Below are positions 21,133 through 27,480 of a stretch of DNA of 64,000 nt, in pieces; position 1 is the first letter of the stretch; each line of letters starts with the position of its first letter. The DNA comes from Candidatus Eremiobacterota bacterium (GTDB lineage: Bacteria > Vulcanimicrobiota > CADAWZ01 > Ess09-12): the NCBI GenBank assembly GCA_031082125.1, contig JAVHLM010000022.1, positions 62,001 to 126,000 of the forward strand, written 5' to 3'. The position numbers were made by a program, and so were the translations under genes. The notes under the pieces are model-generated. The model was not told the DNA's origin. It worked only from the letters and a program-made list of their open reading frames with translations, and did not search any database.

Positions 21133-21372
21133 TCACGCGCTCTTTCGCTGCTTTGCTTCAAGCAGAGCCTTGAGTTCGCGGTAGTAGGCCCAGGCGTCAT
21201 CTTCTGAGATATCTCTCAGAGGGTCGCACTCTAATCCCAACGCACGGCACATTCCTAACATTTCTGATACTGAAGGACGGGTTTTTCTTTTTTCATTTTC
21301 CATTTCGAGTAAATTTTCTTCACCAGCATCGCCATATCCAACATTTTTATCAAAAAATTCCTTTTCTGCCAT
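21133..21372 (-). CDS. B1: small partner protein of the A-B module, unknown
   Basis: 79 residues, no recognised family. The C-terminal 45 residues (GMCRALGLECDPL to the EAKQRKSA end) match the 67-residue B2 protein at 22136-22339 closely, including EDDAWAYY, ELKA and the identical last eight residues. The N-terminal parts differ. Its start lies inside the 3' end of A1 (23-bp overlap), suggesting translational coupling. Charged, probably cytosolic. The layout, a small conserved gene after a longer variable gene, is like toxin-antitoxin or effector-immunity pairs, but this is inference. Confidence 0.6.
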   Translation of the reverse strand: MAEKEFFDKNVGYGDAGEENLLEMENEKRKTRPSVSEMLGMCRALGLECDPLRDISEDDAWAYYRELKALLEAKQRKSA

Positions 21373-21886
21373 TGTGATCTACTCCTCCATTGCTGTATGT
21401 ATGAGTTTTTATGGTGGAGTATTCCAGTTTTCTCAGCAGCGGTATGGATTTCCGATAATACAGATATGAAAAGCCCTTAGGGAAAGGTCTTGTTTTGTAA
21501 TCGTCAGGGAGCATCTCTGTAAAGTGCACTTCCCTATTCTTGCGATTAAGGGATCTCTTGATCGTGCCTCCCCCGGTCACCGTTTTACCATTCTTGTCAT
21601 AGGCCTTGCAAGCCATTCTGGCAAAAATTTGAAGTATGCCCTTAGAATCTATTTCAAACTTGACATAGTTCACTTTTAAGGCTTCTCTTCTATGATTCTT
21701 TCCTTCTCCCAGAAGATATTCATTTATAATTTGAGGTTTCACTGTTTTTCGGAAATACCTCTGAATTCTCTGGTAAGCCCTATCCCTGGCATAATCATCG
21801 TCCAGCCAGTCGTCAGGCACTTCAATCCAAGGAGAAGGCATTGAGGGTGATGCTCCTGCAGTGAAAGATGGCTCTCCATCGATCAT
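21350..21886 (-). CDS. A1: shortened paralogue of A2, unknown
   Basis: 178 residues, no recognised family. The first ~31 residues (MIDGEPSFTAGASP through PDDWLDDDY) are almost identical to A2. Later blocks INEYLLG, YYRxxIPLLRKL and TIKT also align, with much divergence between. The protein stops soon after TIKT, where A2 continues for another 125 residues with AYVWSFYGYSND, so A1 probably lost its C-terminal domain. An internal Met at residue 15 with AGGAG upstream is an alternative start for both copies, because the annotated ATG has no clear ribosome site. B1 overlaps its end. Confidence 0.55.
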   Translation of the reverse strand: MIDGEPSFTAGASPSMPSPWIEVPDDWLDDDYARDRAYQRIQRYFRKTVKPQIINEYLLGEGKNHRREALKVNYVKFEIDSKGILQIFARMACKAYDKNGKTVTGGGTIKRSLNRKNREVHFTEMLPDDYKTRPFPKGFSYLYYRKSIPLLRKLEYSTIKTHTYSNGGVDHNGRKGIF

Positions 21887-21960
21887 ACAGGAACAATATT
21901 GCCCGGGTATTACCCCGATATTTCATCTCTTCGGAATTGTGTAAACTTTTCGTATTCAAC
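21795..21960. repeat. Module leader direct repeat, copy 1
   Basis: 166 bp covering the upstream region and first ~31 codons of A1. Nearly identical to 23133-23298 in the same orientation, with only scattered mismatches. The offset is 1338 bp. Confidence 0.9.
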
Positions 21961-22093
21961 CCTCCTTCGTCTTCAGCCTCTCGAACCACTTGGGTGAAGC
22001 CATGGAGTGCACCGACGGAGATATCTATGAGAAGTGCCAGATCGGGGACGAAGATGACGATGACGAGCTTTATCAAGAAATTCATTCGGAACT

Positions 22094-22381: not shown

Positions 22382-23224
22382 TCAATTCTGCTTGATTCTA
22401 TCAAGAAGATGGTCTATCAATTCTGACATCTCATCAGTGCTTTCGTCGTTGATATCCTGGTGTGTCCCGCTCCACCATACAGGGCGTATAGGTTTATCAT
22501 GGGCATCCATGCCCATAAGGAACTTCTTCCCTGTCTTTTCGCCATTGGGGAGCTTGTTTTTTGCCAACTTGCACATTCTTGTAATGCTCATGATTTTATT
22601 TTCCCGATCTGGAGTAAGCTTAATTCCTCTTACTTTCTTGAGGTAATCAGCATACTGATTCAGTGTCTCTTTCATATCATCGTTGGAATAACCATAGAAG
22701 CTCCATACATATGCCCCGATTAAATTGTATTCTTCCTTTGAGCGCTCTGCTGTCGTCGTGGGGTCAGTTTTTATTGTCTCTATTCCTAGTTTTCTCAATA
22801 ACGGGATTACTCTGCGATAATACTCTACGCCGAAACCTTCGATTCGCACTCTGCTTGCGTCCATTAAATCAAACTTGCATATCTTGTTATCAATCGTTCT
22901 GTGAATCCTTATTTTGTCAGTTCCTGTACCGCCAAGCTTCAAGGGCCCTGTGACTTTCATTGTGCTTTTGATCTTCAATCTGCCGGATATTTCCTTCGCG
23001 CTGAATCTTTCTACCTCAATCTGCGCTGAATTGCAAATACCTGAGCCAAGAAGATATTCGTTGATAACTCCAGGCCTGGCTCTTAATCCGAAATACTCTT
23101 GAAAAACTCTGTATCCCGAATGATTCGAGTATTCATCGTCCAGCCAGTCATCTGGCACTTCAATCCAAGGGGAAGGCATTGAGGGTGATGCTCCTGCAGT
23201 GAATGATGGCTCTCCATCGATCAT
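22382..23224 (-). CDS. A2: full-length module protein, unknown
   Basis: 280 residues with no family I can name. After the shared leader (about 1-31) there is a beta-rich segment, then the block YYRRVIPLLRKLGIETIKT and the sequence IGAYVWSFYGYSNDDM (about 170-185), followed by a mostly helical C-terminus. A GxYxWxxxGY/F string resembles one I remember from phage head-associated and toxin-like proteins, but I could not check this. No signal peptide. Lower G+C than flanking chromosomal genes, consistent with acquisition. Forms an operon with B2. Confidence 0.6.
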   Translation of the reverse strand: MIDGEPSFTAGASPSMPSPWIEVPDDWLDDEYSNHSGYRVFQEYFGLRARPGVINEYLLGSGICNSAQIEVERFSAKEISGRLKIKSTMKVTGPLKLGGTGTDKIRIHRTIDNKICKFDLMDASRVRIEGFGVEYYRRVIPLLRKLGIETIKTDPTTTAERSKEEYNLIGAYVWSFYGYSNDDMKETLNQYADYLKKVRGIKLTPDRENKIMSITRMCKLAKNKLPNGEKTGKKFLMGMDAHDKPIRPVWWSGTHQDINDESTDEMSELIDHLLDRIKQN

Positions 23225-23298
23225 ACAGGAACAATATTGCCCGGGTATTACCCCGATATTTCATCTCTTCGGAATTGTGTAAACTTTTCGTATTCAAT
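23133..23298. repeat. Module leader direct repeat, copy 2
   Basis: Partner of 21795-21960, covering the 5' end and upstream region of A2. The match fades just beyond the leader at about 23307. The repeat points to a tandem duplication or later gene conversion of the promoter and start. Confidence 0.9.
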
Positions 23299-23389
23299 CC
23301 TTCTTCGCAGCACTCCTGGAGGAGACTCTCTGCCTGCAAAGAATTCCTACTGGCAGAGGACTCTATTTCCCTTTTGGGAGAAGAATGAC

Positions 23390-23748: not shown

Positions 23749-23859
23749 AGAGTGAGGCCAGGGGCATTCTCCCGGCAAACAGGATTTGCCTGTGCTACGA
23801 ATGCCAGTATAGCGACAAATCCAATTGTTTGCTGAAGAGGAGAATGGCCCCTGTCCTCT
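23749..23859. repeat. Hairpin repeat, left copy (inverted relative to right copy)
   Basis: 111 bp whose reverse complement matches 27369-27480 with about five differences. It is itself palindromic: GGGGCATTCTCC near one end pairs with GGAGAATGGCCCC near the other, and GCAAACA..GGATTTG pairs with CAAATCC..TGTTTGC inside, so single strands could form a long hairpin. Resembles a MITE or large REP-like element. Confidence 0.85.
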
Positions 23860-24073
23860 ATAAATCAACTTTTCCACTCTTTGCCTTGGTGGACACTGAC
23901 ACCCATGTGACACTGTAGAGAAGTATTATAAGCTCAATGGAGAGTATAAAGTGAAGGAATGAGATAGCATGGGAAGAATTTCAGAGAAGGTGCTTTAATA
24001 CAGCATTCCATTTTCATCGTTCCCGAAATCGTCCCAGCTGCAAAGTTGAAGTCGGATTCCTGCAGACAAAAGC
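23860..24073. other. Gap before helicase with no recognised gene
   Basis: A+T-richer sequence with no convincing open frame on either strand. It should hold the helicase promoter, but I found no -35/-10 pair at normal spacing. No obvious ribosome site precedes the ATG at 24074. Confidence 0.4.
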
Positions 24074-27000
24074 ATGGAGACAAATAAGATAATCCCGATA
24101 TTCAGATCAAAGCCCCTTGCCCGGGGAGGAAGCGATCCTTTCCTGGAACATCTGCGTCCGCTCTTTGCCAAAGCTCGGGCAGTTGACCTCGTCGTCTCCT
24201 TTGTAAGAAGCTCTGGACTCACAGCCATAAAAGGTCCTCTCCTTGATGCCCGTGACAGGGGAGTTCCCATACGAGTGCTCACAGGTGATTATCTGGATAT
24301 AACAGAAGTAGAAGCCCTGAACCTCCTTATGGACTGGGCTTTGGACGGCCGTATCAGGACTTATATCTATGAATCCGGATGCGACAGCTTTCATCCCAAG
24401 GCATATATTTTTCACTACAATCAAGGAGGATCTGCATTCGTAGGCTCAAGCAACCTAAGCCATTCAGCCCTGGGAAGCGGCATTGAGTGGAATTACAGAA
24501 TTGACGCAGAGAAAGATCCTGAAGGATTCCTTTTTATCAACAAGGCTTTTGAAGAACTTCTTTCAAACCAATGCGTGAAACCCCTCGATTTCCAGTGGCT
24601 TAAGGAATACAGAGAACGCTGCACCAGAACTTCAGAAAAGAAGATATTCAGACCACCTGAACTCATAGAGCCAGAATCACCAGCAGATTTACCTCAACCT
24701 CATTTTATTCAGGAACAGGCTCTCTCTGCTTTAAGAGAAACACGTAAAGAAGGTTATCAAGCGGGACTTGTAGTGCTCGCCACAGGCCTGGGAAAGACAT
24801 ACCTCGCGGCTTTTGATTCAATGGAGTTCAAGAGAGTTCTCTTTGTGGCACACCGTGAAGAAATTCTCCATCAATCACAGTCAGTCTTCCGTAAAATGCG
24901 TCCTGGCAGCTTCCTCGGTATTTTCATGGGCAAAGAGAAAAACAGCGCAGCAGATGTGCTTTTTGCTTCAATACAGACTCTCTCAAAAAAGCAAAACCTT
25001 TCTCTATTTGAGCCTGGTTATTTCGATTATATAATAATCGACGAGTTTCACCATGCTTGCGCTAACACTTACAGGAAGCTCATAGCCCACTTCAGCCCTT
25101 CCTTTCTTCTAGGGATTACGGCAACTCCTGAAAGAACTGATCAGAGCGATCTTTTGGTTCTGTGTGAAAACAATCTTGTATATGAAAAAAGTCTTGTCGC
25201 TGGAATCACCGCAGGCCTTCTTGTTCCTTTTTCCTATTATGGCATTAAAGATCCGGTTGACTATCAGAACATTCCCTGGAGAAACGGAAAATTTGATCCA
25301 GAGATGCTTGAAAATGCAGTAGAAACACAGGTAAGAGCTGAGAAGGCTCTCAGTAGCTGGAAAAAACTCAAAGGGACGCGAACAATTGCATTCTGTTGCT
25401 CGAGGCATCATTCGGATTTCATGGCGCGATATTTCAAAGAAAAGGGAGGATATAAAACAGCATCGGTGCATTCTGGTGCGGGCTCGGATCCAAGAGCAGA
25501 ATCACTTCTTAAACTTGAAACAGGTGAGCTCGATGTAATATTTGCCGTGGACATATTCAATGAGGGCCTTGATGTACCTGATGTAGATACAGTCCTTATG
25601 CTCCGGCCTACAGAATCTTCGATATTATTTCTGCAGCAAATGGGAAGAGGCCTCAGAACTGCAAAAGATAAAGAGAGGCTCACCATAATTGATTTTATTG
25701 GAAACCATCGTTCTTTCCTTCTGAAGCCAAGGACATTACTATCGCTTGGCGGTGGCACTATGACCTTGGCAAGATCTCTTGAATCTGTGAAGAAAAATAC
25801 CATTGAGCTTCCACCTGGCTGTTCCGTCACTTATGAGATGGGCCTTATTGATATGATGAAGGAGTTCCTAAAGATATCAGGCTTAGAAGCTATAGAGACA
25901 ATCTATGATGAATACAGGCTCATTCACGGTAGGCGAATTCTGGCCGCTGAGCTCATACAGGCAGGACTTTCTTTCAATGCTATCAGGACAAGATATGGGG
26001 GATGGTTCTCTTTTGTGGGAAGCCGTGGTGATCTCATGGAGAAAGAAAGATATTGCCTGGAAAAGGAGCCCTCATGGTTTAGAGAGCTTGAAATGATGGT
26101 AATGAAAAATTGTTTCTTTTTCATTACCATCAAGGCGCTTATTGAAGAAGACGCTTTTTTCGTCAAAATACCTTTGGACAGTCTTGCCCTCAGGGCTCAT
26201 AATATATTGGCAAGAAATCCTTTACTCCAGAAAGATATCGATCCCGAACTCTTCCCCAATCCTCTCATTCCAGAGCCTCAGAAGTGGCTTACTTACTGGG
26301 AAGGAAATCTTGTCCACATATCCTCAGGAATGCAAGAAAATAAATTGGGCCGTTTATTCAATTACAGGGATAATCTTTTCTCTCTGAACCTTAATGTACC
26401 TGAAGAATTTCGAGATGAATTCACTGCAATGACACAGGAACTTATTGATTACAGGCTTTCCACATATGAGAAAAAAAGAGTAATTTCAATGCCTACTGAT
26501 GTTGAAATTACTAAAGAAATCATTGCCAAAGTGATCACATCGGGAGGCAAAACTATCAAACCTATCATAATGCTTGGTAATCTCAAGAAACGTGATATCC
26601 TTCCTTTTGGAGATACTGATCTGCTTGCAGATGGAGTTGTGTATCGGGCAAGATTTGTGAAAAAAGCAATCAACGTAATGGGTGTTACAGGTAAGGAGGG
26701 TAATGTTCTCCCGGAAGTTTTGAGGAAATGGTTTGGTCCTTATGCGGGCTCACCCGGCACATCTTTCCATGTCCGTTTCAGAAATGAGGCCGGCCAGTGG
26801 GTTATGGAGCCTGTCAAGATGGATCCCGAGTCGAATGTAATATATTTCCCTGGAAGATTCAGAGTGCCCTTTTTCAGAGACTTTCGAGTGGCATGCGGTG
26901 CCTTTGTCAACGGCTATTATAATGAAGCGTGCAAGAATGCAGATATCTTGGAAATTGAGTCAAAAAGAAAATCTATCGATACTGCCAAATATTTTGTCAT

Positions 27001-27295
27001 CATCGCAGAGGGCACTTCGATGGACGGCGGAGCAAATCCTATTTCTGATGGTGACAGAGTGCTCATGGAATGGATAACGGCAATCAGCTCATCAGATGTG
27101 GAAGGCAGAATCTGCTTGGTGGAAAAAACTTCAAATGACGAAACATCCTCCTTTGCTTTAAAACGAATTGTGAGAAAAGGAAATCACTGGTTCCTCCGTT
27201 CAGAGGAAGAGGGGAACAGAAGAGATGAACCTGTCGTATTTAAAAATATCGCACCAATCGCTAGATTTGTGGAGCTAATCGATAATAAGGAATAG
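24074..27295 (+). CDS. PLD-nuclease/DEAD-like helicase with S24 (LexA)-like C-terminus
   Basis: 1073 residues. A phospholipase D-type domain at about 1-190 has HPKAYIF (His107) and GSSN (124-127), giving one HKD half-site. A superfamily 2 helicase follows: GLGKT with Lys241, DEFH at 323-326, TATPER, and QMGRGLR. A middle region is unassigned. Near residue 982 the phrase EGTSMDGG, then DGDRVLMEW and LKRIV with Lys1030, matches the Ser/Lys layout of S24 (LexA/UmuD) peptidase folds. PLD-helicase fusions occur in bacterial defence islands; a defence role is inference. Visibly A+T-rich (25141-25200 is 22/60 G+C), so probably horizontally acquired. Bracketed by inverted hairpin repeats. Confidence 0.85.
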   Translation: METNKIIPIFRSKPLARGGSDPFLEHLRPLFAKARAVDLVVSFVRSSGLTAIKGPLLDARDRGVPIRVLTGDYLDITEVEALNLLMDWALDGRIRTYIYESGCDSFHPKAYIFHYNQGGSAFVGSSNLSHSALGSGIEWNYRIDAEKDPEGFLFINKAFEELLSNQCVKPLDFQWLKEYRERCTRTSEKKIFRPPELIEPESPADLPQPHFIQEQALSALRETRKEGYQAGLVVLATGLGKTYLAAFDSMEFKRVLFVAHREEILHQSQSVFRKMRPGSFLGIFMGKEKNSAADVLFASIQTLSKKQNLSLFEPGYFDYIIIDEFHHACANTYRKLIAHFSPSFLLGITATPERTDQSDLLVLCENNLVYEKSLVAGITAGLLVPFSYYGIKDPVDYQNIPWRNGKFDPEMLENAVETQVRAEKALSSWKKLKGTRTIAFCCSRHHSDFMARYFKEKGGYKTASVHSGAGSDPRAESLLKLETGELDVIFAVDIFNEGLDVPDVDTVLMLRPTESSILFLQQMGRGLRTAKDKERLTIIDFIGNHRSFLLKPRTLLSLGGGTMTLARSLESVKKNTIELPPGCSVTYEMGLIDMMKEFLKISGLEAIETIYDEYRLIHGRRILAAELIQAGLSFNAIRTRYGGWFSFVGSRGDLMEKERYCLEKEPSWFRELEMMVMKNCFFFITIKALIEEDAFFVKIPLDSLALRAHNILARNPLLQKDIDPELFPNPLIPEPQKWLTYWEGNLVHISSGMQENKLGRLFNYRDNLFSLNLNVPEEFRDEFTAMTQELIDYRLSTYEKKRVISMPTDVEITKEIIAKVITSGGKTIKPIIMLGNLKKRDILPFGDTDLLADGVVYRARFVKKAINVMGVTGKEGNVLPEVLRKWFGPYAGSPGTSFHVRFRNEAGQWVMEPVKMDPESNVIYFPGRFRVPFFRDFRVACGAFVNGYYNEACKNADILEIESKRKSIDTAKYFVIIAEGTSMDGGANPISDGDRVLMEWITAISSSDVEGRICLVEKTSNDETSSFALKRIVRKGNHWFLRSEEEGNRRDEPVVFKNIAPIARFVELIDNKE

Positions 27296-27368
27296 GCTTT
27301 GCTCCGGCTGCAAGACTTCATGAAATAGTTCAGCGATTGTTTGGGTGTCGAAATCCTCTGAATCACTT

Positions 27369-27480
27369 AGAGGACAGGGGGCATTCTCCTTTTCAGCAAA
27401 CAATTGGATTTGTCGCTATACTGGCGTTCGTATCACAGGCAAATCCTGTTTGCCGGGAGAATGGCCCCTGGCCTCACTCT
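27369..27480. repeat. Hairpin repeat, right copy
   Basis: 112 bp, inverted partner of 23749-23859. Its right end lies 7 bp from the stop codon of the Rpn-type fragment at 27488. The same junction, a degenerate GAATGGCC..CTGGC..TCAC followed by CTTACAG, recurs at about 28992-29027. Confidence 0.85.

Follow-up and report, generated by a model that had tools for sequence, protein, structure and literature searches.

A PLD nuclease-helicase with a C-terminal S24 domain: a candidate LexA/UmuD-type fuse in a Type IV-like restriction enzyme

Introduction

The window, a 64,000-nucleotide stretch of bacterial DNA, encodes a protein in which a PLD-family nuclease and an SF2 helicase are followed by a genuine S24 domain (residues 926-1070). 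Computational comparison shows that this domain holds a Ser982-Lys1030 dyad and a Cys941-Gly942 scissile bond, and that these features are jointly conserved in one clade of relatives. The protein is proposed to be a restriction enzyme that carries its own fuse of the LexA/UmuD type, in which RecA would promote a cut at 941/942 and restriction would most likely be turned off; a probability of about 0.6 is given to this reading. How restriction enzymes are kept from destroying a cell's DNA that is damaged or freshly repaired is understood for few systems. If the reading is true, an SOS trigger module inside a restriction enzyme would tie RecA directly to restriction at the molecular level. Moreover, two natural active-site states, Ser-Lys and Ser-Arg, occur on the same scaffold, so that one substitution would suffice to test what cleavage does. 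No published report of a PLD nuclease-helicase/S24 fusion was found in the open-licence PMC literature, where no paper on S24 peptidases, helicases and anti-phage defence describes it and none brings DUF3427 and S24 together.

Gene and domain organization

The open reading frame marked out by an earlier sequence-only reading is exact, and all the motifs quoted there are present, the HPK motif of Table 1 being the start of HPKAYIF (aa 107). The tail motifs likewise lie in frame, namely TSMDGG at 981 with Ser982, DGDRVLMEW at 992 and LKRIV at 1029 with Lys1030. Pfam matches to PLDc_2 (56-146), ResIII (212-354) and Helicase_C (430-529) bear out the proposed combination of PLD nuclease and helicase. 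PADLOC places the protein in the class mREase_IV (Type IV methyl-directed restriction) with an E value of 6.8e-97, and the closest solved structure is 7clg (aa 32-554, E 1.7e-83). This entry, labelled 'Putative helicase', is taken here to be SauUSI from its length of 953 aa and its architecture.

Table 1. Positions in the window of the gene, its domains, the predicted catalytic residues and the flanking repeat
Feature	Position	Strand	Basis
Whole gene, PLD nuclease - SF2 helicase - coupler - C-domain - S24 tail, 1073 aa	24074..27295	+	ORF
PLD-family nuclease domain, aa ~15-190; HPK aa 107-109, GSSN aa 124-127	24116..24643	+	PLDc_2 E 9e-9; 7clg alignment
SF2 helicase/translocase, aa 205-558; GLGKT 238, DEFH 323, QMGRGLR 522	24686..25747	+	ResIII E 1.6e-34, Helicase_C E 4e-16
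Probable helical coupler, aa ~590-800	25841..26473	+	Conserved with homologues; BLAST alignments to aa ~800-815 in most relatives
Uncharacterised C-domain, aa 815-918	26516..26827	+	Alignment with 14 invariant columns
S24/UmuD-like domain, aa 926-1070	26849..27283	+	Profile, Pfam, fold model, own-genome LexA alignment
Predicted scissile bond Cys941-Gly942	26894..26899	+	Alignment with UmuD C24-G25 and own-genome LexA Ala-Gly
Ser982, predicted nucleophile	27017..27019	+	Invariant in 82 scan tails and all intact query-type relatives
Lys1030, predicted general base	27161..27163	+	Lys in 14/14 and 11/11 query-type relatives
100-nt inverted repeat flanking the gene, 95% complementary	23761..23860 (+) left arm / 27368..27467 (-) right arm		

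The C-domain that precedes the S24 tail has no Pfam match, gave just insignificant staphylococcal-nuclease matches in the PDB, and yielded a poor, low-confidence model for which the structure search returned no fold match; its position suggests a role in target recognition. The window protein carries no HIT, methyltransferase or DUF3427 domain, PF11907 (DUF3427) giving no match in it up to E 1. A DUF3427 remnant is also absent from the window, including the region downstream of the gene, and neither HIT nor methyltransferase is encoded beside it upstream.

As the sequence-only reading had remarked, the gene is A+T-rich, with a G+C content of 41-46% across its length, whereas most of the window around it has 52-63%. 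It lies within a stretch at about 21-28 kb that has 41-49% G+C, and this low-G+C stretch together with the flanking inverted repeats suggests recent transfer or rearrangement. Two minus-strand ORFs in the same region (21350-21886 and 22382-23224) begin with near-identical N-terminal segments of about 30 residues and then diverge; they have in common a direct repeat of 178 nt with 96% identity (21792-21969 / 23130-23307), and the longer ORF (22382-23224) has no Pfam match. Elsewhere in the same genome, a second PLD-helicase (L002, G000:C19:148321-149805) lacks an S24 tail and begins with a PRA-PH/MazG-like domain.

Identity of the C-terminal tail

Taken as a single sequence, the window tail matches Peptidase_S24 over aa 965-1046 with an E value of 0.0036 and 17.4 bits, below the cut-off of 23.3. 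A phmmer search of the PDB with the tail alone gave no meaningful match, so that a profile of tails was required. All of 26 aligned homologous tails match PF00717 (best E 1e-12), and relatives such as L141 (36 bits), L144 (35.3) and L059 (35.4) lie above the Pfam S24 cut-off. The profile built from these 26 tails matches UmuD 8gmt (E 2.7e-4) in an alignment that runs from P-x-F...C-G-F, which includes the Cys24-Gly25 cleavage site, through G-x-S-M and DGD. Furthermore, the window tail as modelled by AlphaFold2 (pLDDT 86.6, pTM 0.82) has as its best structural matches the lambda repressor on the RecA filament (8gmu, E 5e-5, prob 1.0), a hyper-cleavable fragment of lambda repressor that includes the cleavage site (2hnf), and LexA (1jhe, 8s7g). 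A profile of the query-type relatives described below also aligns with the LexA encoded in the window's own genome; the two coincide at Ala-Gly and Ser by hmmsearch, and at Ser and Lys by hhalign. When the tail was shuffled, the pattern [AC]G...SM...[LIVFC]K at S24-like spacing arose in 0.05% of trials.

The S24-like tail proposed from the motifs is thus upheld, with S24 matches obtained by profile. A chance resemblance, or a degenerate leftover without function in the window gene, might be read from the single-sequence score below the Pfam cut-off, from the A+T-rich island with repeats in which the gene lies, and from its lack of the HIT and DUF3427 domains that occur in relatives. Such an explanation is very improbable, as the evidence from profile, fold and conservation concurs, the frame is intact, and every catalytic residue is present. 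A phage repressor fragment was also considered as the identity of the tail and set aside, no relatives of the tail or of the C-domain having been found in phages or IMG/VR viral contigs.

Sampling of relatives

The S24-tail module is widespread: when 84,980 genomes were scanned once with a tail alignment of three rows, 304 loci encoding relatives were matched, and 80 of these were retrieved. With L032 and L033 from plasmid records, these 80 form a set of 82 tails, and in 76 of the 82 the tail continues the reading frame of the nuclease-helicase or of a related helicase. As a check on bias of the pattern scan, the 29 loci found by the ACG pattern alone were all seen to have Ser-Met, and the five found by the SM pattern alone all have Cys-Gly; profile-based searches agree with the scan on this co-occurrence. 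Four loci of side interest, L062 and L065 (also L058 and L081), carry this S24 tail on another protein, a ResIII/DEAD helicase that PLDc does not match and whose different N-terminal region is putatively nuclease-like by appearance.

Relatives of the query type were obtained by a profile search of the phylum of the genome that carries L037, in which they occur in 14 of 284 genomes (L121, L128-L140). Their alignment with the window protein spans the helicase, the coupler, the 815-918 domain and the S24 domain. A second search, using a query-type profile, added 11 further complete members, which were not used in the model.

Conservation of the catalytic set

In the window protein, Cys941-Gly942 aligns with Cys24-Gly25 of UmuD, while Ser982 and Lys1030 align with the nucleophile and base of LexA and UmuD. 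The distance from the scissile bond to Ser982 is 41 residues and that from Ser982 to Lys1030 is 48; the first of these distances is 34-40 in query-type relatives, 35 in LexA and 36 in UmuD (from residue numbers in PMC11442139). The Ser nucleophile sits in G-x-S-M, as it does in self-cleaving S24 domains, and is invariant in relatives. All 14 query-type relatives possess the Ser, the Lys and a scissile bond, which is Ala-Gly in 11 and Cys-Gly in three, and the full set recurs in 11 of the 11 further members. Ala/Cys-Gly, Ser and Lys are therefore present together in the window protein and in all 25 complete relatives of the query type, and one truncated member retains Ala-Gly and Ser. The P1 residue among query-type members is just Ala or Cys, in keeping with the two bonds, Ala-Gly and Cys-Gly, at which proteins of the LexA/UmuD superfamily are cut (PMC10020695). 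In one degenerate tail (L190, G851:C6), the scissile site, Ser and Lys have all gone together. The genome of L190 also carries an intact copy, L184.

The retention of Lys in intact members, the restriction of P1 to Ala or Cys and the joint loss in L190 form, at the level of sequence comparison, the pattern of a working autoprotease. The Ser982/Lys1030 dyad named by the sequence-only reading is accordingly well founded within the query type, where both residues are conserved. The conserved Cys941-Gly942, the predicted scissile bond, had been overlooked there.

Ser-Lys and Ser-Arg clades

Outside L037, the position of Lys1030 is occupied by Arg in 80 of 80 readable sequences of the proteobacterial set, and six independently sampled genomes also show Arg at this base position. 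The dyad is thus specific to a clade and is not a property of the whole family, Lys being replaced in the far more numerous proteobacterial relatives; to this extent the earlier claim has to be qualified. ACG-x-F and Ser-Met are kept in the proteobacterial set without exception. In a tree of the nuclease-helicase core, from which the tail was left out, the 26 sampled Arg members fall on one side of a branch with an SH-aLRT of 97. The three states, Ser-Lys, Ser-Arg and no S24, are explained on this tree, which is unrooted as to gain or loss of the tail, by just three changes, and this fits a single change from Lys to Arg. The nearest relatives in the same phylum as the window protein (L003-L009) end near aa 914 without an S24 tail, from which it follows that the tail is dispensable. 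A HIT domain fronts the PLD-helicase in these tail-less L003-L009, e.g. in L005.

The proteobacterial Arg clade is probably non-cleaving. Phage 186 CI, an S24-fold protein of solved structure, lacks a canonical active site and has Arg152 where the base would be (PMC12984324), and this shared Arg in a non-catalytic protein suggests that the clade cleaves poorly. Since the clade keeps the scissile bond and the Ser without the Lys, its domain must have a role independent of efficient proteolysis. A Lys at +4 from the Arg, equivalent to aa 1034, is present in 79 of 80 Arg-clade tails, where query-type members mostly have Arg. This Lys was considered as a substitute base and rejected, its reach to the Ser being doubted from a place four residues along the same strand.

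These observations raise the alternative that the S24 domain of the window protein is itself a structural, non-cleaving module, whose own Cys-Gly loop would sit in the cleft of the active site and serve as a lock or as a dimer contact, with non-cleavable S24 repressors as the model. Loop and cleft are indeed kept in the Arg clade for some use other than efficient cleavage, and phage 186 CI offers a precedent. For the window protein this alternative is unlikely, though it deserves weight: Lys is found in every intact query-type member despite just 25-35% identity of their tails to the window protein, P1 is limited to Ala or Cys, and the degenerate L190 drops all three features at once. A broader proposition, in which a RecA-triggered self-cleaving fuse in the Type IV-like lineage is paired with a non-cleaving lock reached in the sister clade through one Lys-to-Arg change, is put forward tentatively, at somewhat short of even odds.

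Accessory domains and the direction of the switch

Relatives differ in the domains attached to the common core. A HIT (histidine triad) domain lies N-terminal to the PLD-helicase in the query-type relatives L141, L143 and L144. DUF3427 is present in L141, L089 and L034, and in L141 it comes after S24. By phmmer, DUF3427 follows S24 in 40 of the 82 tails, 36 of these having the nuclease-helicase in frame and four lying in cut frames. Additionally, a methyltransferase is fused N-terminally in 21 members of the Arg set and is encoded directly upstream in 43 of 82. With its class I methyltransferase, the Arg clade (L037-L116) looks like a two-component system with its own methyltransferase, to judge from gene content.

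According to the proposal, the protein would be a single-chain, ATP-dependent restriction nuclease working like SauUSI, in which the PLD nuclease cuts and the SF2 motor translocates, with a self-cleaving S24 domain of the LexA/UmuD type built onto its C-terminus as the fuse. Upon DNA damage, RecA-ssDNA filaments would attach to the S24 domain and stimulate a cut at Cys941-Gly942, after which the nuclease-motor (aa 1-941) and the S24 domain would be separate pieces. The involvement of RecA is inferred because the well-studied relatives with this catalytic set are RecA-responsive (PMC10020695) and because the genome itself encodes LexA and two RecA-family proteins (G000:C16:93361-94149 and C39:29562-30353); the presence of both makes RecA-stimulated self-cleavage possible. 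In many relatives, the released piece would also carry the DUF3427 domain, so that the cut would detach a candidate reader of modified DNA from the nuclease-motor. Cleavage would most likely turn restriction off and spare host DNA under repair from shredding, as an autoproteolytic counterpart of ClpXP-driven restriction alleviation. This direction, which is argued from the loss of the candidate reader in DUF3427-bearing relatives and from analogy with EcoKI, is the least certain step of the proposal. Proteolysis is known to alleviate EcoKI restriction (PMC11109961), although according to the same paper this alleviation is not one of the SOS functions.

The opposite direction is also conceivable. 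Phage DNA damage or replication would activate RecA, the tail would be cut, and the freed nuclease-helicase would attack DNA, possibly as a suicide defence; the sequence-only reading had likewise thought of a release triggered by phage DNA damage. A cut of this kind activates UmuD (PMC11442139), and in the window protein, which is without DUF3427, the S24 domain is terminal and could be an inhibitory cap. An ON switch is nevertheless rather improbable, less so than chance resemblance but more so than a lock, since in 36 of the 82 scan tails, and also in L141, a cut before DUF3427 would remove targeting and not a cap, and since an unguided nuclease set off by ordinary DNA damage would be costly.

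Comparison with known systems

The nearest system to the window protein in overall design is SauUSI, a Type IV, m5C-dependent enzyme whose structure comprises a PLD nuclease, an SF2 ATPase, a helical coupler and an SRA-type target-recognition domain, with dimerization through the nuclease (PMC7913695). Like SauUSI, the window protein is a single chain with an N-terminal PLD nuclease bearing an HxK motif followed by an SF2 ATPase, and a C-terminal region stands in place of the coupler and target-recognition domain. A conserved region of matching length (aa 590-800) is a candidate for the coupler. The window protein differs in lacking the DUF3427/SRA-type reader, instead of which it has its own C-domain (aa 815-918), and in its S24 domain, which is not described for SauUSI. 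As DUF3427, one of the SauUSI features that were looked for, is absent, the protein is called SauUSI-like and not a SauUSI-type enzyme.

Among S24 proteins, UmuD (Cys24-Gly25, Ser60, Lys97) is the best profile match, sharing the S24 fold with a preceding arm and the motifs P.F...CG.F, G.SM and hK. UmuD is a 139-aa subunit of DNA polymerase V, whereas the S24 domain of the window protein forms the tail of a restriction-like enzyme and has longer spacings (41 and 48 residues). LexA and lambda CI match in fold, including their RecA-bound forms, and in the Ser-Lys dyad, and the Ala-Gly variant of the scissile bond is that of most query-type relatives; in contrast to them, the window protein has no HTH DNA-binding domain and is fused to a nuclease-helicase. 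Phage 186 CI resembles the proteobacterial clade in the Arg at the base position, where the window protein has Lys, but has no Ser nucleophile region, which the proteobacterial clade retains. Finally, the alleviation of EcoKI restriction by ClpXP (PMC11109961) parallels the proposed proteolytic shut-off of restriction during host DNA repair. In the EcoKI case the restriction complex is the target of a separate protease, whereas the window protein would carry its protease as one of its own domains.
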